Source of the DNA: Oxalobacteraceae bacterium OTU3CINTB1
GTDB lineage: Bacteria > Pseudomonadota > Gammaproteobacteria > Burkholderiales > Burkholderiaceae_D
DNA length: 64,000 nt
Assembly (NCBI GenBank): GCA_024123955.1
Contig: CP099652.1
Coordinates: 1,984,001 to 2,048,000, forward strand
Direction: 5' to 3'
The stretch's first letter is position 1. Every line of letters begins with the position of its first letter. Below are positions 1 through 12,652 of the stretch, one piece after another. A model generated the notes under the pieces. It was given only the letters and a program-made list of their open reading frames with translations, searched no databases and was not told the origin of the DNA. A program made the translations under genes and the position numbers.

Positions 1-291
1 GAGCGCGGCGACCAGGGCGCCGCCAAGCTGCGCCTGGGCTTGTCGCTGCGTCCGCTCGACCAGATGGAGCGGCGCCAGTCCGGCATCCCCGGCGGCCTGG
101 TGATCGAGGACGCCGGCGGCGCGGCCGCCAACGCCGGCATCCAGCCGGGCGACGTGCTGCTGTCGGTAAACGGGCTGGCGGTGAACACCGTCGACCAGGT
201 GCGCCAGGTGGTCGACAAGTCCGGCAAGTCGGTGGCGTTGCTGATCCAGCGCGGAGATGAGAGAATCTTCATCCCGGTGCGGCTGGGGTAA
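1..291 (+). CDS. DegP/DegQ-type serine protease, C-terminal PDZ part (5' truncated)
   Basis: This reading frame is open from the left edge and ends in a stop at 289-291, so only the last 96 residues are present. They form a PDZ domain: a Gly-Leu strand near the start, the GDVLLSVNG core that follows the ligand-binding groove, and a terminal strand ending IPVRLG. This matches the second PDZ domain of periplasmic HtrA-family proteases (DegP, DegQ, MucD), which refold or degrade misfolded envelope proteins. The protease domain lies outside the window, so a different PDZ protein cannot be excluded. A two-component system follows 62 bp downstream, a common neighbourhood for envelope-stress proteases. 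Confidence 0.8.
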   Translation, partial: ERGDQGAAKLRLGLSLRPLDQMERRQSGIPGGLVIEDAGGAAANAGIQPGDVLLSVNGLAVNTVDQVRQVVDKSGKSVALLIQRGDERIFIPVRLG

Positions 292-353
292 TCAAAAACC
301 GGTCATTTGCAACCCCTCTGGCGGAATTCGACAATAACAAGAAAGGAAACACC

Positions 354-1013
354 ATGCGACTTCTGCTGGTAGAAGACGACACGATGATCGGCGAAGTGGT
401 GCTCGACCTGCTGCGGGCCGAGCACTACGCGGTCGACTGGGTCAAGGACGGCGACATGGCCGACACCGCGCTGCAAACGCAAACCTACGACCTGGTGCTG
501 CTGGACCTGGGCCTGCCGCGCAAGGACGGCCTCGAAGTGCTGCGTTCGATGCGCGCGCGCAAGGAGCTGACCCCGGTCCTGGTGGCCACCGCGCGCGACG
601 CCAAGGAGCAGCGCATCGCCGGCCTCGACGCCGGCGCCGACGACTACGTGCTCAAACCCTACGACCTCGACGAGCTGCTGGCGCGCATCCGCGCCTTGTT
701 GCGCCGCTCGGCCGGTCGCGCCGAGCCGGTGTTTGAGCATGGCAACGTCTCGGTCAACCCGCAAACGCGCGAAGTGATCGCCGACGGCAAGCCGGTCAAC
801 CTGTCGGCGCGCGAATGGGCCGTGCTGGAAGCCTTGATCGCCCGGCCCGGCATCGTGCTGTCGCGGCACCAGCTCGAAGAGAAGTTGTACAGCTGGAAGG
901 ACGAGGTCAACAGCAACGCCGTCGAGGTCTACATCCACGGCCTGCGCAAAAAACTCGGCGCCGAGCTGATCCAGAACGTGCGCGGCCTCGGCTACATGGT
1001 GCCCAAGCTATGA
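354..1013 (+). CDS. OmpR/QseB-family response regulator
   Basis: A 219-residue DNA-binding response regulator. The receiver domain (about residues 1-115) starts RLLLVEDD and has the phospho-acceptor Asp51 in LVLLDLGLP, a switch Thr in VATARD and the conserved Lys in YVLKPYDL. The C-terminal winged helix (about 125-219) has the OmpR-type ending, with LSAREWAVLEAL and VYIHGLRKKLG. An AAAGGAAA ribosome site lies just ahead of the ATG. The stop overlaps the start of the sensor kinase gene (ATGA), so the two are translationally coupled. It resembles QseB/TctD-type regulators; the stimulus and targets cannot be read from sequence. Confidence 0.95.
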   Translation: MRLLLVEDDTMIGEVVLDLLRAEHYAVDWVKDGDMADTALQTQTYDLVLLDLGLPRKDGLEVLRSMRARKELTPVLVATARDAKEQRIAGLDAGADDYVLKPYDLDELLARIRALLRRSAGRAEPVFEHGNVSVNPQTREVIADGKPVNLSAREWAVLEALIARPGIVLSRHQLEEKLYSWKDEVNSNAVEVYIHGLRKKLGAELIQNVRGLGYMVPKL

Positions 1014-2410
1014 AGGTGAAGGTCAAGATGCCCTCGCTGCCATCGTTGCCGCGGGTGCCGGTGGTGACGCACTCGCTGCGCGGCAGGCTGCTGTGGTTTC
1101 TGCTGGCGGCCATCACCATGGCGGCCATCGCCCAGGCGCTGATCGCCTACCGCAGCGCGCTGAGCGACGCCGACCAGATCTTCGACTACCACATGCAGCA
1201 AATGGCCATGTCGCTGCGCTCGAGCGCGACCCTGACCAACAAGGCCGCCGACGCCGTGGCCGACCCCGAAAACGACGACCTCGTGGTGCAGGTCTGGACC
1301 CCGGACGGCGCCCAGGTGTTCCGCTCGCTGTCGCGCGCGGCGCTGCCGCAGCGCGCCGTGCTGGGTTTTTCCAACGTCAAGGCCAACAACACCACCTACC
1401 GCATCTTCTCGGTGCAAACCAGCAACCAGACGGTGCAGGTGGCCCAGGACATGGCGGTGCGCCAGCGCATGGCCGGCACCCTGGCGCTGCGCACGGTCGG
1501 CCCGATCGCCGTGATGGCGCCGATTTTGATGCTGGTGGTGTGGTGGGTCGTCAGCGGCTCGCTCGCGCCGGTGTCGCGCGTCAAACGCCAGGTGGCCGCG
1601 CGCCAGGCCGACGATTTGTCGCCGGTGTCGGAAAACGATTTACCGGACGAGGTGCTGCCGCTGGTCCATGAACTGAACTTGCTGTTCGGCCGCGTGCGCA
1701 CCGCCTTCGAGGCGCAACAACATTTTGTGGCCGACGCCGCCCACGAACTGCGCTCGCCGCTGGCCGCGCTCAAGCTCCAGGTGCTCAGCCTGGGCCGCGC
1801 GCAGGACGAGGCCGCGCGCAACGTCGCCATCGGCCGCGTGACGGCCGGCATCGAGCGCGCCACCCGGCTGGTCGAGCAATTGCTGGTGCTGGCGCGCCAG
1901 GAGGGCTCGGTCGACGACGCGCGGCTCGAGGCGCTGAGCCTGTCGGACCTGCTCAAGCGCACCCTGGGCGACATGGCCGGCCTGGCGCAGGCGCGCCAGA
2001 TCGACCTCGGCCTGCACCACGCCGACGAGGCCGGCGTCGACGGCCAGCCCGACGCCCTCATCATCCTGATGCGCAACCTGGTCGACAACGCCATCAAATA
2101 TACGCCGGCCGGCGGCACGGTCGACCTCGACCTGCGCCGCGTGCCGGGCGCCAAGTCGGCGCCGGGTCGGGTCATCCTCAGCGTCGAGGATTCCGGCCCC
2201 GGCATTCCCGCCGACGAGCGCGAGCGCGTCTTCAACCGTTTCTACCGCGTGCCCGGCAGCGAGGCCGGCGGCAGCGGCCTGGGGCTGGCCATCATCAAGT
2301 CCATCGCCGAGCGCCACGGCGCCGTGCTCACCCTCGACCAGTCCGCGCGTTTGGGCGGGCTGAAGGTCCAAGTCGATTTTCCCGAGACTGCGACGCCCAC
2401 TCCGGTCTAA
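1010..2410 (+). CDS. QseC/TctE-type sensor histidine kinase
   Basis: A 466-residue membrane sensor kinase partnered with the preceding regulator. The ATG at 1010 overlaps the regulator stop and is preferred over upstream in-frame starts inside that gene. There is a transmembrane helix at about 30-50, a periplasmic 2CSK_N-like sensor region, a second helix near 165-185, then HAMP-like and HisKA segments with the phospho-acceptor His245 in DAAHELRSPLAAL. The ATPase domain has the N box (LVDNAIKYTPAGG), the G1 box (VEDSGPGIP) and the G2 box (GGSGLGLAIIK). All catalytic motifs are intact. The signal sensed is unknown. Confidence 0.95.
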   Translation: MKVKVKMPSLPSLPRVPVVTHSLRGRLLWFLLAAITMAAIAQALIAYRSALSDADQIFDYHMQQMAMSLRSSATLTNKAADAVADPENDDLVVQVWTPDGAQVFRSLSRAALPQRAVLGFSNVKANNTTYRIFSVQTSNQTVQVAQDMAVRQRMAGTLALRTVGPIAVMAPILMLVVWWVVSGSLAPVSRVKRQVAARQADDLSPVSENDLPDEVLPLVHELNLLFGRVRTAFEAQQHFVADAAHELRSPLAALKLQVLSLGRAQDEAARNVAIGRVTAGIERATRLVEQLLVLARQEGSVDDARLEALSLSDLLKRTLGDMAGLAQARQIDLGLHHADEAGVDGQPDALIILMRNLVDNAIKYTPAGGTVDLDLRRVPGAKSAPGRVILSVEDSGPGIPADERERVFNRFYRVPGSEAGGSGLGLAIIKSIAERHGAVLTLDQSARLGGLKVQVDFPETATPTPV

Positions 2411-2441
2411 AATGCTCCTTTGACATCGGTTGGAGCGGCGT

Positions 2442-3635
2442 ATGAAGAAGATCGGCTTTTCGGGCACCCTGGACCCGATCACCAACGGCCACATGTGGGT
2501 GATCAACGAGGCGCGCTCGATCGCGGACGAAGTGGTGGTGTTCCTGTCCGAAAACACCGCCAAAAAACCCAAGTTCACGGCCGAGGAGCGCAAAAGCATC
2601 ATCGCGCTCAGCTGCGCCGAGCAGGGCTGGGACAACGTGCAGGTGGTCATCGTCAAGGGCGACTACACGGCGCGCGCGGCCAAGAAGCACGGCGCCGACT
2701 GCCTGATCCGCGGCATCCGCACCACGGCCGATTTCGACTACGAAAACCTGATCCAGCAGACCAACGTCGACGTGTTACAAGGCGCCAAGACCATCTTCGT
2801 CATGCCGCCGCGCGACCTCGGTTCGGTCAGTTCGAGCTTCGTCAAGGCGCTCGAGGGGCCGATCGGCTGGAACTGGATCATGAAGCAATTCGTGCCCGGG
2901 CCGGCCTACCACGCCTGGGTGCTCAGCTGGCTGCGCAAGGAATGGGAAACCTTGTGGGACTACGCGCACGCCGACGTGCCGGCCATCGCCCACGCCGACC
3001 AATGGTTCGTGCGCCTGACCGGCGCCACCGCCTACGGCGGCGCCGACCGCCACTACCACAACCTCGACCACCTGGTGCACGGCCTGTGCGAGATCCGCGC
3101 CTGGGCCGCCAACACCGGCCCGGACCCGCTCGATGTCGACATCGTCAAGCAGGCGTTCTGGTTCCACGACGCCGAATACGGCCGCCGGGGCGAGCCGGGC
3201 GAGTTGACCAACGAGGAAGCGAGCGCCCAGTTGTGGCTGGGCAGCCACCTGGCGCAGGAAATGGACGACACGGCGCAACTGATACGCGCCACCGACCACT
3301 TCCAGGAAGCGTCGATCACGCACCGGCTCAAGGACGTCATGCTCAGCGTCGACCTGGCCATCCTCGGCCAGGACGACGAGGTCTATCACAATTACGCGCG
3401 CGGCATCCGGCGCGAATACAGCCACCTGCCGGACGTCAAGTACCGCCAGGACCGGGGCGGCGCGCTGGCGCATCTGTGCCGCAAGGCCGAGGCGGGCCAG
3501 CTGTTCGGCAACGCCTACTTCGCCGACACCTACAACGAACGCGCCATCGCCAACATGCAGCGCGAAATGGCCACCCTCAGCAACGCCGGCAACTCCGGGG
3601 TCAGGTCCGCCATTTCTACACAAGCAGAACCGTAG
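2442..3635 (+). CDS. Phosphopantetheine adenylyltransferase-like domain fused to HD phosphohydrolase
   Basis: A 397-residue two-domain protein. Residues 1-160 match phosphopantetheine adenylyltransferase (CoaD), which makes dephospho-CoA from ATP and 4'-phosphopantetheine. Visible are the nucleotidyltransferase motif GTLDPITNGH (8-17), KKPKFTAEER, RGIRTTADFDYE (from 90) and the C-terminal VSSSFVKAL. Residues 165-390 look like a metal-dependent HD phosphohydrolase of the COG4339 type, with HYHNLDH (204-210), WFHD (His242-Asp243) and a later Asp in LSVDLAIL. The ATG at 2442 has GGAG six bases upstream and is chosen over a TTG at 2430. The last dozen residues and the stop are encoded by a palindromic repeat. 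CoaD is normally about 160 residues and unfused. Confidence 0.85.
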   Translation: MKKIGFSGTLDPITNGHMWVINEARSIADEVVVFLSENTAKKPKFTAEERKSIIALSCAEQGWDNVQVVIVKGDYTARAAKKHGADCLIRGIRTTADFDYENLIQQTNVDVLQGAKTIFVMPPRDLGSVSSSFVKALEGPIGWNWIMKQFVPGPAYHAWVLSWLRKEWETLWDYAHADVPAIAHADQWFVRLTGATAYGGADRHYHNLDHLVHGLCEIRAWAANTGPDPLDVDIVKQAFWFHDAEYGRRGEPGELTNEEASAQLWLGSHLAQEMDDTAQLIRATDHFQEASITHRLKDVMLSVDLAILGQDDEVYHNYARGIRREYSHLPDVKYRQDRGGALAHLCRKAEAGQLFGNAYFADTYNERAIANMQREMATLSNAGNSGVRSAISTQAEP

Positions 3636-3704
3636 AGCGGCGTAAATCGGCGGCCAGCCTTACGAGGGACGAGGCCGTGTAGAAATGGTGGACCTGACCC
3701 CGGA
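3594..3704. repeat. Palindromic repeat, GGGGTCAGGTCC arms
   Basis: Two inverted arms of about 27 bp (3594-3620 and 3678-3704) enclose a spacer of about 57 bp. The arms begin TCCGGGGTCAGGTCC and end TGGACCTGACCCCGGA; one mismatch is visible (CCGCC against GGTGG). The left arm lies inside the coding end of the CoaD-HD gene and supplies its stop. The GGGGTC core is shared with the repeats at 10056, 35268, 40399 and 53986. REP-type mobile palindromes behave this way, but no mobilising transposase lies in the window. Confidence 0.8.
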
Positions 3705-3784
3705 GTACGGGGCGCGGCGGTGTGGCGCTCTCTGCTACACTGGCCGCGCCGCTTATCGTCCCCCTTGCCGCCATGAGGAACGCC

Positions 3785-4903
3785 ATGCCCTACCTGCAAA
3801 CACTCGATTCCATCGTCCTGTCCACCGTCGCGCCGGCCGCGCAGGCGACCGACCGCGACGCCGTCTTTCCCCGCGCGGCCATCGGCGCGCTGGGCCAGGC
3901 CGGCCTGCTCGGCCTGATCAGCGCCGAGGCGGTCGGCGGCGGCGGCAAGGGCCTGGCCGAGGCGGCCCAGGTGGTCGAGCGCATCGCCCGCGCCTGCCCG
4001 TCGACGGCGATGGTGGTGTGCATGCATTACTGCGCCACCGTGGTCATCGAGGCATTCGGCGCCGAGCCGCTGCGCCGCGAGATCGCCGCCGGCCGCCACC
4101 TGAGCACCCTGGCGTGGTCCGACAGCGGTTCGCGCAGCCACTTCTGGGCGCCGATGGGCACGGCGCGGCGCGATGGCGACCACGTCGTGATCGACGGCAG
4201 CAAGACCATGGTCACCTCGGCCGCCGAAGCCGATTCCTATGTGTGGTCGACCGGGCCGGCCGACGGCGCCGGCGTCAGCAGCCTGTGGCTTGTCGAGCGC
4301 GACAGCGAGGGGCTCGGCGAGGCCAAATTCTTCGACGGCCTCGGCCTGCGCGGCAACCGCTCGTCGCCGTTGAGCGCCAGGGGCGTGCGGGCGCCGGCCG
4401 CCGCGCTGCTGGGCGCCGACGGCGGCGGCTTCGACATCATGGTCGGCAAGGTGCTGCCGGTGTTCGCCACCCTGACGGCGTCATGCTCGCTGGGCCTGAT
4501 GGACGCGGTGCTGGAGGCCGCCTGCGGCCACGTCACCGCCAGCAAGCTCGAACACCTCGACAGCGCGCTGGCCGACTTGCCGACCATACGCGCCTACCTG
4601 GCGCGCGCCCGCATCCAGGCCGACCTGGTGCGCACCTTGCGCGACGACACCGTCGCCGCGCTGGCGGCCGGCCGCGCCGACGCCATGCTGCGCGTGATGC
4701 AGGTCAAGGCCGCCGCCGCCGAGGCCGCGCTGGAGGTGAGCGACACGGCCATGCGCGTGTGCGGCGGCGCCGCCTTCCGCAAGGACCTGGGCATCGAGCG
4801 CTACTTCCGCGACGCCCGCGCCGCGTCGGTGATGGCGCCGACGTCGGACGTGCTGTACGACTTCATCGGCAAGGCCGTCTGCGGCATGCCGGTGTTCGGC
4901 TGA
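3785..4903 (+). CDS. Acyl-CoA-dehydrogenase-like flavoprotein
   Basis: A 372-residue acyl-CoA dehydrogenase fold protein, expected to bind FAD or FMN. An N-terminal helical domain contains ARACPSTAMVVCMHYC. The middle beta domain has WSDSGSRSHFW and the typical VIDGSKTMVTSA strand. The C-terminal helical domain has RVCGGAAFRKDLGIERYFRDARAA in the usual place, quoted here only in part as RVCGGAAF and ERYFRDARA. Where classical dehydrogenases carry the catalytic Glu (YEGT motif) this protein reads VMAPTSD, so dehydrogenation of acyl-CoA is doubtful and a flavin monooxygenase role (DszC or SfnB style) is possible. The start at 3785 has AGGA just upstream. It heads a three-gene operon with the next two genes. 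Confidence 0.85.
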   Translation: MPYLQTLDSIVLSTVAPAAQATDRDAVFPRAAIGALGQAGLLGLISAEAVGGGGKGLAEAAQVVERIARACPSTAMVVCMHYCATVVIEAFGAEPLRREIAAGRHLSTLAWSDSGSRSHFWAPMGTARRDGDHVVIDGSKTMVTSAAEADSYVWSTGPADGAGVSSLWLVERDSEGLGEAKFFDGLGLRGNRSSPLSARGVRAPAAALLGADGGGFDIMVGKVLPVFATLTASCSLGLMDAVLEAACGHVTASKLEHLDSALADLPTIRAYLARARIQADLVRTLRDDTVAALAAGRADAMLRVMQVKAAAAEAALEVSDTAMRVCGGAAFRKDLGIERYFRDARAASVMAPTSDVLYDFIGKAVCGMPVFG

Positions 4904-4932
4904 TGACGCCATTGAGAGCACAAGGGAGACAC

Positions 4933-5793
4933 ATGACAAGCACACCACTGATGATGGGCGCGGTCGCCTACGCGCCCAAGGTCGTGACGATCTGGGAAGG
5001 CTTCAAGGAATACTTCCGCCGCCACGGCCTGGCCTTCGACTACCTCCTCTATTCCAACTACGAGCGCCAGGTCGAGGCGCAATTCGACGGCAGCATCAAC
5101 CTGGCCTGGAACTCGCCGCTGGCGTGGGTGCGCGCCGCGCGCATCGCCGCCGCGCGCGGCCTGACGCTCGACACGGTGGCGATGCGCGACACCGACCGCG
5201 ACCTGACGTCGGTGCTGGTCACGCGCGCCGATTCGCCGGTGACCGAGCTGGCCTGGCTGGCCGGCAAGACCATCGGCTTCGGCGCCATCGACTCGCCGCA
5301 GGCGCGCCTGATCCCGCTCGACTATCTGCGCCACCACGGCCTGCTGGCCGGCCGCGACTTCATGGCGCGCCACTTCGACGTCCTGGGCGGCAAGCACGGC
5401 GACCACATCGGCGGCGAGCGCGACGCCGCGCAGGCGCTGGTCGCCGGCGAGATCGACGCCGCCTGGATGATCGACGGCAACCACATGGCATTCTCGCGCG
5501 AAGGCTTGCTGGCGGCCGGTACAACGCGCATCCTGGCGCGCACGCAACCCTTCGATCATTGCAACTTCACCGTCAGCCCGGGCGCCCCGGCCGAGCAGAT
5601 CAAGCAGTTCACCGAGTTGCTGCTGGCGATGCGCTGGGACGACGCCGAGGTGCGCCCGCTGCTGGAGATGGAAGGGCTGCGGCAATGGCTGCCCGGCCGC
5701 ACCAGCGGCTACGACGCCCTGATGCGCGCCGCCGACGACGAGCAGTTCTACGATGCAGCGGGGAATATCATTGCAAGCGACTATCGATATTGA
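4933..5793 (+). CDS. PhnD-like substrate-binding-fold protein without signal peptide
   Basis: A 286-residue protein with the type II periplasmic binding fold of the phosphonate/phosphite PhnD family: GAVAYAPKVVTIWEGFKEYF at the start, LVTRADSPV, LAGKTIGFGAIDSPQARL, and HFDVLGGKHGDHIGGERDA before a C-terminal lobe. Unlike transported members it starts directly at the first strand with no signal peptide or lipobox, so it is probably cytoplasmic. The AGGGAG ribosome site fits the ATG at 4933. It lies 29 bp after the flavoprotein gene, and its end overlaps the next gene. No ABC permease or ATPase is adjacent. In other families the same fold works as an enzyme (MqnA/MqnD, THI5), which is a possible precedent. 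Confidence 0.8.
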   Translation: MTSTPLMMGAVAYAPKVVTIWEGFKEYFRRHGLAFDYLLYSNYERQVEAQFDGSINLAWNSPLAWVRAARIAAARGLTLDTVAMRDTDRDLTSVLVTRADSPVTELAWLAGKTIGFGAIDSPQARLIPLDYLRHHGLLAGRDFMARHFDVLGGKHGDHIGGERDAAQALVAGEIDAAWMIDGNHMAFSREGLLAAGTTRILARTQPFDHCNFTVSPGAPAEQIKQFTELLLAMRWDDAEVRPLLEMEGLRQWLPGRTSGYDALMRAADDEQFYDAAGNIIASDYRY

Positions 5794-7069
5794 GCAGCTG
5801 GGCTTTGACGCCGGCGCCCATGTGCTGGTCAAGCACGCGCTGGCGGCGTTGCCGCCGGGGCAAACCTTGCAGGTGCGCGGCCGGGCCCACGGCTGGGAAG
5901 GCCAGCTGATCGCGTGGTGCCGCACGCAAGGGCATCAATGCGCGTTCGCGCGAGACGGGGAGGGCGGCGGCAACGTCGCCACCGTGCGCCGGCACGCCGA
6001 TAGCGTCGATGGCGCCGCTGGCCCCGACACCGCCGACACCGCAAACACCGCAAACACCGCCGGCACCGCCGACAACGCGCCCCACGCCGGCGCGGGCGGT
6101 CGTTGGCGCGGCGCCTTGCGTACCGGCCACGCCGACCCGTCCTTGCCCGGCGCGCTGGCCGAACGCGCCGACGCCCGCTGGGGCCTGGCCGCGCGCGGCG
6201 CGACGGTGGAAGCCGGCTCGCCGCCGATCGCCTTCCGCCTGGCCGAGCGCGACGAAGTCTGGGGTGAACGCGCCGCCGACCTGTACGCGCAGGCCGCCGC
6301 CGCCCAATGGGACCCGCAAACGGCGATCGACTGGACCGCCCCGTTCGAGCTGCCCGACATCGTCGAGGAGGCCGTGGTGCAGGTGCTGACCTATATGATC
6401 GAAAACGAGGTGGCCGCGCTGGTGGTGCCCGCGCGCTTCCTGGGCCAACTGCATCCGCACTACCGCGAAGTGCAGGCGGTGCTGGCGATCCAGGTCGCCG
6501 ACGAGGCCCGCCACATCGACGTCTTCACGCGCCGGGTACTGCTCAAGGGCCGCGAGCCGGGCCTGTCGACCGCCGGCGGCCAGGCCTCGCTCAAGACGCT
6601 GCTCGACGAACCGGATTTCTCGGTGGCCGAGTTTTTATTGTCGGTGCTGGGCGAGGGCACGTTTGTCAGCCTGCTGCACTTCCTGCACGAGCACGCGCCG
6701 GACCCGGTCACGCGGCAGATCGCCCGGCTGGCCGCACGCGACGAAGCGCGCCACGTAGCTTTCGGCATGACGCACCTGGCCGCGCGGCTGGAAAACGATC
6801 CGGGTTTTCGCGCCCGGCTGGCCAACGCGGTGCAGTCGCGCAACGACGCGCTATCGACGACATCGGGCCTGAACGAGGAAGTGTTCGACGCGCTGATCCT
6901 GCTGGCGGCGGGGGAATTGACGGTGCCGGCCATCGCGGCCGGCTACCTGAAGGTGCAGCAGTTGATGCGCGACATGGCCGAGGGACGCCAGGCGCGGCTG
7001 GAAAGACTGGGCTTCAGCAAGGACGCCGCACAACACCTGTCGTCCCTGCACACCCGCAACTTCATGTAA
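5753..7069 (+). CDS. Di-iron ferritin-like protein with TusA-like N-terminal domain
   Basis: A 438-residue protein. Residues 8-60 look like a TusA/SirA-type domain (GQTLQVRGR, IAWCRTQGHQC), but the CPxP cysteine motif is absent. A low-complexity linker of NTA/DTA triplets follows (about 92-109). The C-terminal helical domain carries an apparent di-iron ligand set: Glu217 or Glu219 in ENEVAAL, Glu251 and His254 in DEARH, Glu301 in GEGTF, and Glu331 and His334 in a second DEARH. This is the E, ExxH, E, ExxH pattern of ferritin-like oxygenases and R2-like proteins. The ATG at 5753 overlaps the previous gene by 41 bp; a TTG at 5771 with GGGGA ahead is an alternative start. The substrate is unknown. 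Confidence 0.8.
   Translation: MQRGISLQATIDIEQLGFDAGAHVLVKHALAALPPGQTLQVRGRAHGWEGQLIAWCRTQGHQCAFARDGEGGGNVATVRRHADSVDGAAGPDTADTANTANTAGTADNAPHAGAGGRWRGALRTGHADPSLPGALAERADARWGLAARGATVEAGSPPIAFRLAERDEVWGERAADLYAQAAAAQWDPQTAIDWTAPFELPDIVEEAVVQVLTYMIENEVAALVVPARFLGQLHPHYREVQAVLAIQVADEARHIDVFTRRVLLKGREPGLSTAGGQASLKTLLDEPDFSVAEFLLSVLGEGTFVSLLHFLHEHAPDPVTRQIARLAARDEARHVAFGMTHLAARLENDPGFRARLANAVQSRNDALSTTSGLNEEVFDALILLAAGELTVPAIAAGYLKVQQLMRDMAEGRQARLERLGFSKDAAQHLSSLHTRNFM
6026..6079 (+). repeat. Six-copy 9-bp tandem repeat inside the ferritin-like gene
   Basis: Six imperfect 9-bp units (GACACCGCC or AACACCGCA variants) encode Asp/Asn/Gly-Thr-Ala triplets in the linker between the two domains. The repeat is in frame, so copy-number change would lengthen or shorten the linker without a frameshift. 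Confidence 0.85.
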
Positions 7070-7110
7070 TGGTCGGCCATGGGCCAGATCAAGCCAAGAT
7101 CAAACCCAGA

Positions 7111-7848
7111 TCAAAAACGGTTCCAGTTGTTGTGGCGGTGCTCGGTCGCCTCCTTGAGCAGGTAGCCGGCGCGGCGCTCGTCCCTGGCGCTGTGGGCGTC
7201 GCCCAGCTGCACCGTCATCGCCAGTTCCTGCAGCGCCGGCGGGTACTCGTGCTCGGCCGACTCCTCCAGCAAGGCGCGCGCCTTGGCCGGGTCCGCCGGC
7301 ACGCCGCGCCCCTCGCTGTAGAAGTACGACAGCAGGAACATCGCATGCGCGTTGCCGCCTTCGCTGGCGGCGCCCAGCCAGCGCGCGGCCAGCCGGTCGT
7401 CGCGCGCGACGCCGTCGCCGTTCTTGTAGAGCTGGCCCAGCACCAGCGCCGCCCGCGCGTGCCGCTGCTGCGCCGCCAGGGTGTACCACGGCGCGGCCGC
7501 CGCCGGCTGCGCGGGTACGCCGGCCACGCCCAGCCGCAGCAGCTCGCCCAGCTGGAACGCCGCCTCGACGTCGCCGCCGCGCGCGGCCTGCTCGAACAAC
7601 TTCAGCGCCTCGGCGCGCTGGTCCGGCCGGGTTTTATATAGCAGCGCCAGCTCGCGCTGGGCCACCGGCATGTCCTGCCGCGCCCACGCCATCAGCTTGC
7701 GCTCGGCGCTGGCGTCGGCCTGCTGCAGCGCCTTCATGCCGACCGTCTCGATCTGCGCCGCGTCGGGCGGATCGCGCTGGATTTGGCAACCGAACAACAG
7801 CGCGGAGGCCAGCACCGTCGCCAGGATCGTCACCGAAGGTTTTTTCAT
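7111..7848 (-). CDS. Sel1-repeat lipoprotein
   Basis: A 245-residue exported protein. The N-terminus is a lipoprotein signal (SALLFGC lipobox, Cys at about 21). The rest consists of Sel1-like tetratricopeptide repeats of about 36 residues, for example KLFEQAARGGDVEAAFQLGELL, seen here as FEQAARGGDVEAAFQLGE, then AALVLGQLYKNGDGV and AMFLLSYFYSEGRGV. Such solenoids are protein-protein interaction scaffolds, here probably on the periplasmic face of a membrane. It starts 17 bp after the upstream cyclic-nucleotidase gene and is likely co-transcribed with it. The partner is unknown. Confidence 0.9.
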   Translation of the reverse strand: MKKPSVTILATVLASALLFGCQIQRDPPDAAQIETVGMKALQQADASAERKLMAWARQDMPVAQRELALLYKTRPDQRAEALKLFEQAARGGDVEAAFQLGELLRLGVAGVPAQPAAAAPWYTLAAQQRHARAALVLGQLYKNGDGVARDDRLAARWLGAASEGGNAHAMFLLSYFYSEGRGVPADPAKARALLEESAEHEYPPALQELAMTVQLGDAHSARDERRAGYLLKEATEHRHNNWNRF

Positions 7849-7865
7849 CGCCGCGCTCCCCGGGT

Positions 7866-9971
7866 TTATTTGCTCAGATCGATCGTGTACTTGGCGAAGC
7901 CGCTCGCGTCCAGCGCGCCCTCTGCGGTGACGGCGGTGATGCCGCTGCTTTTGGCCAGCGCCAGGTGGCCCGGCGCCGAGCGCAGGATCACCGGACCGGC
8001 GGTGGCCGTCTTGACGAAGCTCCAGCTGCGCGCGCTGCCGTTGCCGGCCAAGGTGACCTTGCCGGTCGACGCCCCCAGCGCCGCCAGGTAGTTGCTCACC
8101 ACGGTCTGGTTGGCGTCCGGCGACTTGATGATGGTCTTGCTGCCGTCGATGCCGGGCACGGCGCCGCCGCCGCCGGCGCGGTAATCGTTGGTGGCGACGA
8201 TGAAGTCGTCGCCGTCGGCCACCGGCTTGCCCAGGTAGGTCAGGTTGGCGATGCGCGCGCCGGCCGGCTTGGTGACGTCGATCTGGTAGGTCAGCGCGTT
8301 GTTCTCGGCGTAGAACACGTCGTAGTTATAGATCGTGCCGTAGCTCGGCACCAGGTCCTGCTCGGCCGTCTTGGCCGGATCGATCTGGCCGAACTGCTTG
8401 GCGGCCGTCTCCAGCCACGCCTTCAAGTCCGAACCCTTGATCTTGACCGCCTGCAGGTTGTTATTGCTGTACAGGTAAAGGTCGCCCGGATTGCGCACCT
8501 GCAGCCCGACCGGCGCGGCGGCGCTGGCGCCCGGCGCGACGTCGGTGAAGTCGGACGGCCCGTTGCGCCCGGCCTTGAACGGCGCGCTGCACGAGATCAC
8601 CGGAATATTCTTGTAGCTGGCGAGGGTGGCATCGGTGCTGGTGGCGATGAATTTTTTCACGTAGTCGAGCTGCGCCTGGTTGACCAGCTGGATCGCGCTG
8701 ACGTCGCCGGCCAGCGCGAAGTAGGCCGACATCTCGAAGTCGGTGGCCACGCCCAGCGGCTGCTTGGCGTAGGCGATCGTGGCGGCGTGCTCGGCGGCGA
8801 CCAGCGGCGCGATCGCCGGATCGGCCTTGACGTTGGTGGTGCCGTCGGTGTACTTGAAGCCGCGCGATTCGACCGTCGTCTTGGCCGGCTGCACCACCCA
8901 CTTGCCGCGGGTGTAGGCCAGGGTCATCTTGATGATGCCCAGGCGCCGGCCCCAGCTTTGCGCCATGACGGTCGGCACGCCGTTGACGAAGCCGTTGACG
9001 GCGTCGATCTTGGCGCTGGCCGGGAAGGCGGCGAACGAGGCGTCCAGGGCGGCGGCGCCCGGCTCCTTGCCTTTCGGGAAGATCAGGTGCGAGTGGCCGA
9101 TCAGCAGCGCGTCGATGCCGGTGGTGGTCAGGTGGTAGCTGCCGTTTTCCATCTTCGGGCTGTACGGGCTCGGATCGAGGCCGCCGTGCGACAGCGCCAC
9201 GACCAGGTCGGCGCCCTTGGCGCGCAGCTCGGGCACGTACTGCTTGGCCGCCTCCTGCACGCCGGTGACGGCGACCTTGCCGGCCAGGTTCTTCTGGTCC
9301 CACTCGAGGATCTGCGGCGGCACAAAGCTCAGCAGGCCGATGTTCATTTTGACGTCGAACTTGCCGCCGTCGGGCGCGGTGGCCGAGAAGGTGCGCGGCA
9401 ACACCACGTACGGCTGCACGATCGGCTTGCCGCTGGCCACGCCGGTGACGTTGGTCAAGGTCAGCGGGAAGGCCGGGGCGCCGCAGGTGCCGCTCGGCTT
9501 GGCCACGCCGGGGATGCCGAAGTCGGTGTTGGTGATCTGGCTCAGCAGCGGCAAGCCGTAGTTGAATTCATGGTTGCCGAAGCCGCCGCCGTCGTACTTC
9601 ATGGCGTTCATGGCCTTGTGCACGGCCATCGTCTCCGAACACGGGATCGGCTTGGTGACGGCCTGCAGGTCGCCCAGCAGGGTGCCCTGGATGGTGTCGC
9701 CGTCGTCGAGCAGCACGTTGTTGGGGGTCTCGGCGCGGGCGGCGGCCACCAGGGTGGAAGTGCGTTCGAGGCCCAGGCTGGTGTCCTCGGCCAGCGAGTA
9801 ATAGTTATAGCTCATCACGTTGGCGTGGATGTCGGTGGTCTCCATCAACGCCAGGGTCACGGTGGTACCCTCGGGAATCGCCGGGATCGGATTGGACTCG
9901 CCGCCGCAACCCGCCAAGCCGATCACGCCTGCCGCCACCAACGCCGCCACCATCACCGAATTCGTTCTCAT
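7866..9971 (-). CDS. cpdB: Periplasmic 2',3'-cyclic-nucleotide phosphodiesterase/3'-nucleotidase
   Basis: A 701-residue CpdB/UshA-family enzyme that hydrolyses 2',3'-cyclic nucleotides and 3'-nucleotides outside the cytoplasm, salvaging phosphate and nucleosides. The N-terminus has a lipobox-like GLAGCGG, so it may be lipid-anchored, whereas classical CpdB is soluble. The metallophosphatase core shows TTDIHANVMSY, DDGDTIQG, GNHEFNYG, ALSHGG and GHSH metal-ligand motifs. The C-terminal 5'-nucleotidase domain (about residues 440-650) has the substrate-stacking ATNDYRAGGGG segment. The Sel1 lipoprotein gene follows closely. Assignment to CpdB rather than UshA rests on overall resemblance. Confidence 0.9.
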   Translation of the reverse strand: MRTNSVMVAALVAAGVIGLAGCGGESNPIPAIPEGTTVTLALMETTDIHANVMSYNYYSLAEDTSLGLERTSTLVAAARAETPNNVLLDDGDTIQGTLLGDLQAVTKPIPCSETMAVHKAMNAMKYDGGGFGNHEFNYGLPLLSQITNTDFGIPGVAKPSGTCGAPAFPLTLTNVTGVASGKPIVQPYVVLPRTFSATAPDGGKFDVKMNIGLLSFVPPQILEWDQKNLAGKVAVTGVQEAAKQYVPELRAKGADLVVALSHGGLDPSPYSPKMENGSYHLTTTGIDALLIGHSHLIFPKGKEPGAAALDASFAAFPASAKIDAVNGFVNGVPTVMAQSWGRRLGIIKMTLAYTRGKWVVQPAKTTVESRGFKYTDGTTNVKADPAIAPLVAAEHAATIAYAKQPLGVATDFEMSAYFALAGDVSAIQLVNQAQLDYVKKFIATSTDATLASYKNIPVISCSAPFKAGRNGPSDFTDVAPGASAAAPVGLQVRNPGDLYLYSNNNLQAVKIKGSDLKAWLETAAKQFGQIDPAKTAEQDLVPSYGTIYNYDVFYAENNALTYQIDVTKPAGARIANLTYLGKPVADGDDFIVATNDYRAGGGGAVPGIDGSKTIIKSPDANQTVVSNYLAALGASTGKVTLAGNGSARSWSFVKTATAGPVILRSAPGHLALAKSSGITAVTAEGALDASGFAKYTIDLSK

Positions 9972-10055
9972 CGCATCCCCAAAAATGTATAAAAATCAAG
10001 GTGGCGACTTTAACGAAACTACATGACCGCGTTGTGACAAACCGCAATAAACTGC

Positions 10056-10132
10056 GGGGTCAAGTCTGTCATTCAGAAACGAGCTGGTGCATACGACTGT
10101 TGTGCCGGTGTCCGAATGACAGACTTGACCCC
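10056..10132. repeat. Palindromic repeat, GGGGTCAAGTCTGTCATTC arms
   Basis: A 77-bp inverted repeat in the 171-bp gap between cpdB and the DUF3443 gene. The left arm is GGGGTCAAGTCTGTCATTC; the right arm is GAATGACAGACTTGACCCC, a perfect 19-bp match. The same arms recur at 35268-35352, 25 kb away, with a different spacer. Confidence 0.9.
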
Positions 10133-10142
10133 GACTGTTGGG

Positions 10143-11912
10143 TCAGTAGGCCCACAGCGGGCCGGTCTTGCCGTTGACCGTTTGCCCTTCCATGACGACG
10201 AACACGCGGCGGCCGTAGAAGAATGGCAGGCCCCAGTCGAAGGCGTCGCCGTTGCCGGCGGTGGAAATGCCGGCAAGGGGGCCGCCCACGTGCGCGGCCT
10301 GGACGGTCGACGCCAGTTGCACCAGGTTGACGACGTTGAAGGCGACCGTGCCGCTGGCGCTGCCGTCGGCGGCCGTGTTGGTCGCGCTCAGCGCCAGCGC
10401 CGCGACCGGGCAGAAGAAGTCGCCCCCCGAGCAGGTGCGGATCGTCGCGTCGGTGAAGAAGTAGCCGTTCGAGCCGCTGTCGATGAAGCTCGATCCGTAC
10501 GTTTTGCCCTTGTAGGCGGTGCTGAAGTCGCCGCCGCTGTCGGTCTTGAACACCGTTTCGCTGGCGATGGTGTTGTTGGCTTGCGTGTTGACGCCGAAGA
10601 TCAGGGTGCCGCTGACCGACGTCAGGCCGGCCGCGCCCACCGCCGGCAGGCTCACCAGCACGCCGTTGTTGTTGACGGCGAACCCTGCGACCGGATTGCT
10701 GATCTGCGAGGCCAGCGGCATGGCGCTGGCCGTGCAGGTGCCGCCGGCGGCGGAACCGCAGGCGTAGTACACGCCGGATATGGCCGCTTGCGCGCAGGCG
10801 CTGCCGCAGTCGTGCTGGAACAGGCCGACGCCAAGGATGCCCTTGGCGCCCATGGCCGCCAGGGTGCCGAGGTTGTTGCCGGCGCTGCTGCACGTTGCGG
10901 GCGTGGCGGCGTAGCTGGCGCCGCTGTCGCCGATGACCTGGATCGGGATGCCGGCGGCCACCTCGTCGGCCATCTTGACGTCGGCCCGGCGCACCGCGCC
11001 CCACGTGTAGCCGCTGATGAACTTGCCGCATTCGGCGGCGTCGGCGCCGGACGGGGTCTTGACGGCCGGCAGCGCCAGGCCCGTGTTCAGCGCGGACGCC
11101 AGCAGGCGCAGGCCGTAGGAGCCGGTGTCGAGCAGCACGTGGTCGACCGTCTGGCAGGTGGCGGTGCCCGGCTGGCACACCGTCACGTTCACGTAGGGCA
11201 CGTTGATGACGCCGCCCACGCCGGCCGGGCCGCTGTCGACGCTGATGGTGGTGCTGTTCGACAGCGCCGCCGTCACGCTCAGCGCGGCGCTGGCGCTGGC
11301 GGCGCCGCCGTCGCCGCTGCACGTCAGGCTGTAGGTGAAGTTGCCGGCGCCGGCCGGGGTTACCGTCACCGCGCCGGACGTGGCGCGGGCGCCGCTCCAT
11401 GCGCCGCTGGCGACGCAGCCGGTGGCGTTGGCCGACGACCAGCTCAGCACCGAGGTTTGGGCGGTGGTGATGTTGGCCGGCGCCAGGGCCAGATTGGTGG
11501 TGGGGGCGGGCGGCGGGGTGCTCACGACCACCGCGGCGGTGCCGCTGGCGCCGCCGCAGGTGAGCGTGTAGTTGGCCGTGCCGGCGGCGCCGGCGGTGAC
11601 CGTGAGCGTGCCGCTGGCGGCGCGCGCGCCGCTCCAGGCGCCGGAGGCGACACAGCCGGCGGCCGGCGGATTGCTCACGCTCCAGCTCAGGGTGACGACC
11701 TGGCCGCTGGTGGTGGCCGTCGGCGTGGCGCCGATGCTGACCACCGGCGTGGCGGCGACGACGCCGGCGTCGGCCTGGGTGGTGGTGGTGGTGGCCGCCG
11801 TGCCGCCGCTACCGCCGCCACCGCCGCCACAGGCGCTTAGCGCCAGGCAGAGCAGGGCGGCGGCCAAGCGGGCGGTCCAGGGCGCGCCGGCGCCGTGCTG
11901 GGGTAATCTCAT
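10143..11912 (-). CDS. DUF3443 exported protein with retropepsin-like fold and Ig-like repeats
   Basis: A 589-residue lipoprotein. The signal ends in LALSACGGGG, followed by a Gly/Thr-rich spacer. Two tandem Ig-like segments (about residues 50-130 and 135-215) share the motif GCVASGAWSGARA. The rest is the DUF3443 domain, with a pepsin/retropepsin-like VLLDTGSYGLRLL and a second half containing SFIDSGSNGYFF; both carry the Asp-Thr/Ser-Gly of aspartic proteases. The protein ends FDWGLPFFYGR and a short tail. It follows the DUF2844 gene by 9 bp, a pairing common in Burkholderiales. Protease activity is plausible from the two DTG/DSG motifs but unproven. Confidence 0.85.
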   Translation of the reverse strand: MRLPQHGAGAPWTARLAAALLCLALSACGGGGGGSGGTAATTTTTQADAGVVAATPVVSIGATPTATTSGQVVTLSWSVSNPPAAGCVASGAWSGARAASGTLTVTAGAAGTANYTLTCGGASGTAAVVVSTPPPAPTTNLALAPANITTAQTSVLSWSSANATGCVASGAWSGARATSGAVTVTPAGAGNFTYSLTCSGDGGAASASAALSVTAALSNSTTISVDSGPAGVGGVINVPYVNVTVCQPGTATCQTVDHVLLDTGSYGLRLLASALNTGLALPAVKTPSGADAAECGKFISGYTWGAVRRADVKMADEVAAGIPIQVIGDSGASYAATPATCSSAGNNLGTLAAMGAKGILGVGLFQHDCGSACAQAAISGVYYACGSAAGGTCTASAMPLASQISNPVAGFAVNNNGVLVSLPAVGAAGLTSVSGTLIFGVNTQANNTIASETVFKTDSGGDFSTAYKGKTYGSSFIDSGSNGYFFTDATIRTCSGGDFFCPVAALALSATNTAADGSASGTVAFNVVNLVQLASTVQAAHVGGPLAGISTAGNGDAFDWGLPFFYGRRVFVVMEGQTVNGKTGPLWAY

Positions 11913-11921
11913 GCGGCGGTC

Positions 11922-12395
11922 CTATTCGATGGTGGCGGTGTCGAAGCCGGCCGGCAGCGCGCTGGGAATCCAGGCGTGGCCGGCGAACGCGCGCATGTGG
12001 CCGCTCGAGACCAGCACCATGTCGGACTGGTTGAGCGCCAGCTGCGAGTGGCCGGCGCGGGCCCGCTGGCCGGCCGCGCCGGTCATGACGGCAAACTTCT
12101 CGCCCAGCAAAGTGCGCAGGTCCGGCAGGATCGGGCCGCGCCAGCTGACGGCGAACACCTTGCCGGCCGTGTCGCTGTATTCGCGCACGACGGTGCCGCT
12201 GTCGAGGGTGCTCTGGCTGACGGTGTAGACGGCATCGGTGGTGGCGGCCGTCGTGGCGGCCCCGGTAGCGGCCAGGCGCCGCGCGGTGGTGGCCGGCGTG
12301 CCGCCGAAGTCGGACGGCGAGCCGCCCAGCGCCGCGTAGGCGAGGGCGCCTTGCAGCAGTGTGAGGAATAACATGAGGGCGATCGCGTGGCGCAT
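11922..12395 (-). CDS. DUF2844 exported protein
   Basis: A 157-residue secreted protein of the DUF2844 family. An N-terminal signal peptide (MRHAIALMLFLTLLQGALAYA) is followed by ALGG and a compact domain with STLDSGTVVREYSD, VFAVSWRGPILPDL and LVSSGHMRAFAGHAW (quoted in fragments). No catalytic motif is recognisable. It precedes the DUF3443 gene by 9 bp on the same strand, and the two families usually occur together, so a joint envelope role is likely. Function unknown. Confidence 0.85.
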   Translation of the reverse strand: MRHAIALMLFLTLLQGALAYAALGGSPSDFGGTPATTARRLAATGAATTAATTDAVYTVSQSTLDSGTVVREYSDTAGKVFAVSWRGPILPDLRTLLGEKFAVMTGAAGQRARAGHSQLALNQSDMVLVSSGHMRAFAGHAWIPSALPAGFDTATIE

Positions 12396-12548
12396 GGCGT
12401 GCTCCGTTGCCTTGATAAAGACCAGTGTAGGCCGCGATCGGGTTGAATTGCGTTAGTGAAATGTAAGCAAACGTAAAACGAATAAAAAAACGGCGCCCGA
12501 ATGGACGCCATTGTCATCGTGGCCTGAGCACGTGCCTAACCTCGGATG

Positions 12549-12646
12549 CACGTAGGGCGGATTAGGCGGCACGCCGTAATCCGCCATCTACGCGCCGCCG
12601 ACGGCGCATGCATGGCGGATTACGCTTCGCTAATCCGCCCTACGTG
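12549..12646. repeat. Paired palindromic repeat, CGTAGGGCGGATTA family
   Basis: A 98-bp element with two REP-like units in opposite orientation. It begins CACGTAGGGCGGATTAGG, has GTAATCCGCCA then TGGCGGATTACGCTTCGC in the middle, and ends CTAATCCGCCCTACGTG. The single unit recurs at 26830 and 31493. It lies just downstream of the TonB receptor gene stop at 12653, so the outer palindrome could also act as a transcription stop. Confidence 0.9.
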
Positions 12647-12652
12647 TCTCCG

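Follow-up and report, generated by a model that had tools for sequence, protein, structure and literature searches.

A conserved flavoprotein/PhnD-fold gene pair with exchangeable partners, a candidate module for the supply of selenium to SelD

Introduction

What function joins an acyl-CoA dehydrogenase (ACAD)-fold flavoprotein without its catalytic glutamate, a cytoplasmic protein with the PhnD-type fold of substrate-binding proteins (SBPs), and a di-iron protein? The genes for these three proteins (genes 1, 2 and 3) follow each other near the start of the window, as we call the whole 64,000-nucleotide stretch that was analysed (contig CP099652.1, positions 1,984,001 to 2,048,000, of Oxalobacteraceae bacterium OTU3CINTB1, whose genome is one contig of 6.87 Mb). 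The original prediction, made from the letters of the window, took them for one unit and proposed a redox pathway in which the binding-fold protein is an enzyme or carrier, the flavoprotein hydroxylates or oxidises, and the di-iron protein completes oxygen activation. We report here that genes 1 and 2 form a conserved pair, that their partner is exchangeable, and that the pair accompanies selenophosphate synthetase (SelD). We favour, with a probability of roughly 0.5, the reading that an undescribed module provides SelD with selenium and that the trio represents its aerobic form.

Results

A conserved pair with three kinds of partner

A search with an alignment of nine gene 2 relatives found 503 relatives, of which the best 80 were compared. 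These were ranked against a Haemophilus protein, so that loci of the MetE type described below are over-represented. Together with eight loci from further genomes and the window this made 89 loci, 88 of them distinct, as L023 and L034 are the same record with identical gene 2. Genes in the loci of the relatives were called with a simple script. In 88 of the 89 loci an ACAD-family gene lay no more than 6 kb from the PhnD-fold gene, and 87 of these 88 had both on one strand, so the two genes are not chance neighbours. Among the best 80 relatives, the pair was found in Bacillota, Pseudomonadota, Planctomycetota, Verrucomicrobiota, Chloroflexota, Acidobacteriota and others, in bacteria that include human commensals and soil bacteria. 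In the window, all three genes are on the forward strand, with a gap of 29 bp between genes 1 and 2 and an overlap of 41 bp between genes 2 and 3, provided that gene 3 starts with the ATG at 5753. The head-to-tail arrangement is kept in relatives, which agrees with the single unit that had been proposed, and the recurrence of the pair means that the orthologues are not always separated.

The pair recurred with one of three partner sets. The most frequent consisted of a gene for a MetE-like zinc methyltransferase (70 of 89 loci) and one for an OsmC-like protein (69 of 89). A TusA-like/di-iron gene like gene 3 was found beside the pair in 12 loci, none of which had a MetE- or OsmC-like gene. The third partner, encoded by a convergent gene in L019 and L020, is a TusA-like/radical S-adenosylmethionine (SAM) protein of the Rv1681 type (498 bits in L019, cut-off 380). 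Seven loci had neither a MetE-like nor a di-iron gene: L019, L020 and five with unassigned partner type (L044, L069, L083, L096 and L108), four of the five being on short contigs or at a contig end. A plasmid of Mycolicibacterium vanbaalenii (L118, 2911-11264) carries in a row genes for an Rv1678-like membrane protein, the ACAD protein, the SBP and an Rv1681-family radical SAM protein, followed by CcdA and a disulfide oxidoreductase; a deiodinase-like gene lies a few kb upstream.

A tree of gene 2 (92 rows) divided by partner type. The MetE clade (support 100/98) held 70 rows plus three unassigned ones, the di-iron clade (100/98) 12 rows of its kind and a plasmid row whose pair has other partners, and the radical-SAM clade (97/73) three radical-SAM rows plus one cut by the end of its record; the rooting is unsure because a periplasmic row sits on a very long branch. 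The core pair is thus conserved, and its three exchangeable kinds of partner follow the gene 2 tree. The original prediction was right that the trio is real; the two other partner sets and the link to selenium, which could not be seen without tools, had escaped it.

Conservation was counted after removal of rows shorter than 80% of the median length, which left 85 of 88 ACAD, 66 of 70 MetE-like, 68 of 69 OsmC-like, 89 of 89 SBP and 12 of 12 di-iron sequences. The one MetE-like partner that was scanned matched Pfam Meth_synt_2 with 113 bits. All 66 rows contained its zinc-type residues H261, C263, E297 and C361 (numbering of L062), apart from one gap at C361, and also S18, E69 and D205, which we equate with the homocysteine contacts named in the excerpt of PMC7857596; these assignments were made by motif, not by structure alignment. 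The core methionine synthases MesA-MesD of that paper are, like the MetE-like partner, a catalytic domain without folate domain, but the MetE-like partner scores under the cut-offs of the methionine synthase models. Its recognised companion is an OsmC-like protein, where the MesD/MesX methionine synthase has a DUF1852 partner (no search was aimed at DUF1852), and OsmC is absent from the account of core methionine synthases in the same excerpt. Of four OsmC-like partners scanned, three were above the Pfam OsmC cut-off and the fourth just under it; no conserved cysteine column was present in 68 rows. In L070 (4540-5718) the MetE-like gene is spread over two open reading frames (ORFs).

A profile comparison matched the N-termini of the di-iron and the radical SAM partners to each other (probability 91%, E 1e-6); we give it moderate weight, as it was made from nine and three sequences, respectively. 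Both lack the CP cysteine of TusA, and most rows show an AWCR-like motif. Because of this match, two unrelated catalytic domains seem, from their sequences, to carry one accessory domain beside the same pair.

The pair accompanies SelD whichever use the cell makes of selenium

G388 is a genome from the same order as the window. In it, selA and selB flank the trio, all on one strand, and fdhE and formate dehydrogenase genes adjoin. The profile scores of selA, selB and FdhE (575, 490 and 243 bits) were all above cut-off, while the names FdnG, FdnH and FdnI, like the DsrE-, TauE- and sulfite-oxidation-like names used below, were assigned by eye. Furthermore, selD and selU are found within 10 kb of the trio on the same contig, and a gene for a selenate-type SBP adjoins selD. 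This gene order prompted us to test the co-occurrence of SelD with the pair. SelD was found above cut-off in 49 of 50 and 24 of 30 genomes with the pair, i.e. in 73 of the 80 genomes of the best relatives. The seven misses (L044, L081, L082, L087, L101, L104 and L106) were all metagenome bins, and SelD was present in 31 of 31 records taken as isolates. For comparison, a frequency of 33.7% among 5207 bacteria is given in the excerpt of PMC5029168, and we measured 283/399 (71%) in the window's order, 69/120 in the order of Neobacillus and 99/198 in that of Paenibacillus. The excess over the 71% background corresponds to P ~1e-5, a value uncorrected for kinship. When the genomes were sorted into 24 taxon groups compiled by hand, SelD was present in at least one member of 23 groups and in all members of 18.

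SelB scored above cut-off in 41 of 57 genomes searched. Fourteen of the 16 SelB-less genomes had SelD (the exceptions were G185 and G804), and we therefore rejected a role in selenocysteine alone. SelU was found in 10 of these 14, and YqeB, which marks the selenium-cofactor trait, in two of the other four (G765 and G799). In the remaining two, the di-iron-type bins G806 and G808, which may be incomplete, no SelB above cut-off, SelU or YqeB was found. The MetE/OsmC and the di-iron kinds thus accompany SelD whichever selenium use the cell has. The pair follows SelD and no single user of selenophosphate (selenocysteine, selenouridine or cofactor), which is the pattern that a supply of selenium upstream of SelD would produce, and we slightly prefer supply to use.

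Use of selenophosphate would mean that the cluster makes a selenium metabolite, such as selenoneine, or a cofactor downstream of SelD, and that the PhnD-fold protein binds selenophosphate. This would also account for the association with SelD, and it would agree with a gene 2 fold that binds phosphite- or phosphonate-like anions and with the two SelD-positive bins in which no known user was detected. We nevertheless consider it unlikely: those two bins may lack sequence, every other fully tested SelD-positive genome contained a known selenium user, leaving no clear orphan SelD, and a MetE-like partner is better suited to the removal of a methyl group than to assembly. Orphan selD genes are described in the excerpt of PMC5029168 next to isochorismatase-like, ABC ATPase and cysteine-desulfurase-like genes, not next to the families of the trio.

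Co-location pointed in the same direction as co-occurrence. In L093, L097 and L100, selD is near the pair, which makes 3 of 80 versus 0.29 expected (a rough estimate that assumes 4.2-Mb genomes; P 0.003), L097 and L100 being close kin. On an 815-kb plasmid of Miltoncostaea oceani (L117), some 6 kb separate the pair from selB-selA-selD, and the gene 2 of this pair belongs to the di-iron clade. The same plasmid region (524-14847) also holds genes for a DUF2515 protein and a SPASM-type radical SAM protein; near the pair are an arsenosugar-type glycosyltransferase-like gene, which resembles TIGR04282 with 126 bits against a cut-off of 134, and a radical SAM gene that is Rv1681-like with 225 bits against a cut-off of 380.

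Several observations weigh against a supply of selenium to SelD. Within single samples the SelD excess was not significant (6/6, P 0.13; 3/3, P 0.19), and the di-iron form, with SelD in 11 of 12 genomes tested, stands out little from the 71% of the window's order. The window's own genome has selD, but its selD, selB and selU lie away from the trio, and the DNA of the compared loci contained selD in only 4 of 88 distinct loci (L021 and the three mentioned above). The trio is also sporadic: gene 2 relatives were found in 6 of 399 genomes of the window's order, one of them broken. The relative at G463:C23:33799-34645 is split over two overlapping frames and thus probably broken in that assembly. 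At a loose threshold, 15 of 397 genomes of the phylum had a relative, six of them close by score. Finally, the radical-SAM sister clade was without SelD in both genomes examined (G185 and G174), from which it follows that the core pair serves at least one purpose other than SelD-dependent use of selenium.

The latter finding would suit a module for organosulfur scavenging or methionine salvage, its link to SelD being due to ecology or a shared redox life style. Gene 1 matches the models of SfnB (sulfur acquisition), 3-sulfinopropanoyl-CoA desulfinase and DszC, all far under their cut-offs, and the MetE-like and OsmC-like partners and the TusA-like domain belong to sulfur-type families. Sulfur-type neighbours were also seen by eye in L030 (4829-11999), where genes for a small TusA-like protein, a DsrE-like protein, a TauE-like transporter and a sulfite-oxidising-complex-like system lie upstream of the trio. 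Yet the need for sulfur is universal, while SelD is present in 73 of 80 genomes, and a sulfur module does not explain the order selA-trio-selB in G388, so that we judge it rather unlikely. A selenium role for the MetE and di-iron forms taken together appears to us, by comparison, quite likely.

The three proteins encoded in the window

The features of the three genes are collected in Table 1.

Table 1. Features of the three-gene unit (positions in the window)
Feature	Position	Strand	Basis
Gene 1, Glu-less ACAD-fold flavoprotein, Rv1679/FadE16-like, 372 aa	3785..4903	+	Pfam ACAD domains; NF049984
Ala351 codon at catalytic Glu position (gene 1)	4835..4837	+	Alignment with short-chain ACADs; 85 aligned rows
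Gene 2, cytoplasmic PhnD-fold protein, Rv1680-like, 286 aa	4933..5793	+	Pfam Phosphonate-bd; NF049985; model
GKHGDHIGGE insert, residues 153-162 (gene 2)	5389..5418	+	Mostly gap in six periplasmic selenate-type paralogues
His209-Cys210 (gene 2)	5557..5562	+	89/89 rows; other residues in six periplasmic paralogues
Gene 3, TusA-like domain fused to di-iron oxidase-type domain, 438 aa	5753..7069	+	Pfam, ligand set, model
TusA-like domain, residues 9-79, no CP cysteine (gene 3)	5777..5989	+	Weak Pfam TusA, modelled fold, profile match
Di-iron domain, residues 198-436 (gene 3)	6344..7060	+	E/ExxH ligand set; VlmB, ADO, R2lox fold matches

Gene 1 matched four ACAD domain models above their Pfam cut-offs. 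Ala351, in the motif VMAPTSD, aligns with the Glu of YEGT in short-chain ACADs, which we take to be the catalytic general base. In 85 aligned members of the family, including the window, this column contained no Glu (81 Ala, 3 Gly and 1 Ser), and the M, P and D of the MAPxxD motif were present in all 85. Domain matches and alignment therefore agree with the original description of an ACAD fold without its catalytic Glu; gene 1 is not an acyl-CoA dehydrogenase by this residue, and ordinary acyl-CoA dehydrogenation was rejected. The MetE form is found in bacteria that we take to be strict anaerobes (Anaerococcus). This makes hydroxylation by the flavoprotein less likely than had been proposed, as well as flavin monooxygenation as the general role of gene 1.

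Gene 2 matched Pfam Phosphonate-bd with 106.7 bits (cut-off 27). Its predicted model (pLDDT, predicted local distance difference test, 96) has the two-lobed PhnD/PtxB-type fold of SBPs of ATP-binding cassette (ABC) transporters; the closest folds were PtxB, HtxB, ArrX, PhnD and AioX, whose structures were solved with phosphite, hypophosphite, phosphonates, arsenate or arsenite, and Thi5 came further down the list. No signal peptide was present in gene 2: the conserved first strand begins about 8 residues past the Met, which leaves no room for one, and the same was true of relatives with a clear start. No ABC permease or ATPase was recognised by eye in the ORFs of window positions 1-14000, for which no profile was run. 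The original prediction had noted both absences, and uptake of phosphonate or phosphite was rejected on these grounds. Gene 2 thus lacks the signal peptide of a transporter SBP and, as far as seen by eye in positions 1-14000, its neighbouring permease or ATPase.

The next-best matches of gene 2 in Pseudomonadota were putative selenate-binding proteins, all six of those scanned being above the TIGR04553 cut-off. These nearest paralogues in the Pseudomonadota sample are secreted, share about 20-25% identity with gene 2 and lack its ~10-residue GxHGDH insert and its His-Cys. Residues G156, D157 and E162 of the insert were kept in 89 of 89 rows. Taken with the missing signal peptide, the insert and the invariant His209-Cys210 favour a protein that acts within the cell and is probably an enzyme or carrier, as had been proposed. 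The window's genome encodes a second PhnD-fold protein (L002, G000:C1:4851324-4852019), which exceeds the TIGR04553 cut-off; selD, at 4835022, is some 16 kb away from it.

In gene 3, Glu217, Glu219, E251xxH254, Glu301 and E331xxH334 were invariant in 29 aligned sequences, and the model matched the azoxy synthase VlmB, aldehyde-deformylating oxygenase (ADO) and R2lox. The protein thus has the E, ExxH, E, ExxH pattern in a four-helix bundle that is typical of carboxylate-bridged di-iron oxidases, and both ligands and fold support a di-iron fold of the oxygen-using type, in line with the original prediction. It differs from the three in its low identity to them (at most about 21%), in its TusA-like fusion and in its operon. 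For the AurF-type N-oxygenase family PF11583 (cut-off 29.6), gene 3 scored 27.4 bits, and relatives in L021 and L022 scored 34.4 and 27.9 bits. The TusA-like domain was modelled with good confidence as a beta-alpha-beta-alpha-beta-beta unit, while confidence was low at residues 84-124 and 137-163. Its match to Pfam TusA (20.8 bits) is under the cut-off of 28.6. The alignment contains no CP motif, the cysteine of which we take to be the hallmark of TusA sulfurtransferases; model and alignment therefore confirm a TusA-like domain without its cysteine in front of the di-iron set.

None of the three proteins had any PHROGs match, for which reason a phage origin was rejected, and gene 3 had no match on plasmids at 1e-10. 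Upstream of gene 1, an inverted repeat (3592-3706, arms of ~30 bp) that folds at -76 kcal/mol (z -8.9) resembles a repetitive extragenic palindromic (REP) or miniature inverted-repeat transposable element (MITE)-type element. It is preceded by a gene (2430-3635) for CoaD, pantetheine-phosphate adenylyltransferase, above the TIGR01510 cut-off. This protein has about 240 extra C-terminal residues with no Pfam match, which look by eye like an HD-type hydrolase.

Discussion

The best curated matches of genes 1 and 2 were the NCBI families NF049984 (Rv1679, FadE16; 377 bits, cut-off 600) and NF049985 (Rv1680, SBP-like; 231 bits, cut-off 400), both under cut-off. The third member of that group, the radical SAM protein Rv1681 (NF049973), has a TusA-like N-terminus of its own. 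In the window, by contrast, the third partner is di-iron and not radical SAM, and gene 2 belongs to another clade than the radical-SAM type, for which the SelD-less G185 and G174 stand. Rv1680 has been called a putative phosphonate transporter component in the excerpt of PMC8562490.

The names of these NCBI families state no function, and fold families alone do not name a substrate. Both points would leave room for a redox pathway of the kind originally predicted, without a link to selenium or sulfur. The co-occurrence and co-location with selenium genes make such a pathway improbable. What stands of the earlier interpretation is the unit, the intracellular binding-fold protein and the di-iron fold; hydroxylation by the flavoprotein is the part that has lost ground.

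If the module supplies selenium, the invariant His/Cys set of the gene 2 protein might serve to hold a selenium compound or intermediate, and the Glu-less flavoprotein could perform a redox or elimination step on it. In the MetE form, in which the zinc residues are kept, a methyl (or alkyl) group would then be moved to homocysteine without oxygen. In the di-iron form of the window it would be removed oxidatively, and selenide would be set free for SelD as the end product. Oxygen-using and oxygen-free enzymes would thus substitute for each other at one step; in the sister form, which has lost the tie to SelD, radical SAM chemistry may serve at the last step. Demethylation of an organic selenium compound is suggested by the MetE-like enzyme, by the di-iron oxidase that replaces it and by analogy with corrinoid methyl-selenide clusters. 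We propose it tentatively, and the part that analogy plays in the choice of this step counts against it.

The clusters in question are the type I mlp gene clusters of corrinoid-dependent methyl-selenide salvage, described in the excerpt of a preprint (PMC10418091). They also co-occur with selenium genes and have been proposed to transfer the methyl group of methyl-selenide to methionine, with return of the selenium to the cell. They differ in their corrinoid methyltransferases and anoxic settings, and the families of the trio are not named in that excerpt. Among the labelled recurrent neighbour families there was no corrinoid protein or mlp methyltransferase, for which no profile was run.

In the Creative Commons-licensed literature of PubMed Central (titles and starts of abstracts), we came across neither an account of the set of three or four genes nor a function for the same trio, in line with the earlier statement that no named pathway contains it. 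Nor did we find a paper there that treats Rv1680 and Rv1679, or fadE16 and moeX, together. A search by terms did not find the combination in the excerpts of PMC5322559, PMC7857596 and PMC13188914; the last of these lists an OsmC-like selenoprotein and mentions neither ACAD nor phosphonate. As far as that literature was searched, the module is therefore undescribed.

Should a role in selenium fail to hold, what remains is a conserved operon without assigned function. To our knowledge, little has been established about the ways in which bacteria draw selenide for SelD from organic compounds; the route from methyl-selenide that is described in the excerpt of PMC10418091 is corrinoid-dependent and belongs to anoxic settings. 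It is conceivable, though we would not count on it, that the pair and its partners represent a widespread route by which methylated or other organic selenium yields selenide for SelD, with a last step carried out by unrelated chemistries. If so, a compact module would help fill this gap in knowledge, functions would be suggested for the unassigned NCBI families Rv1679 to Rv1681, and the partners would exemplify how unrelated chemistries can replace each other at a single step.

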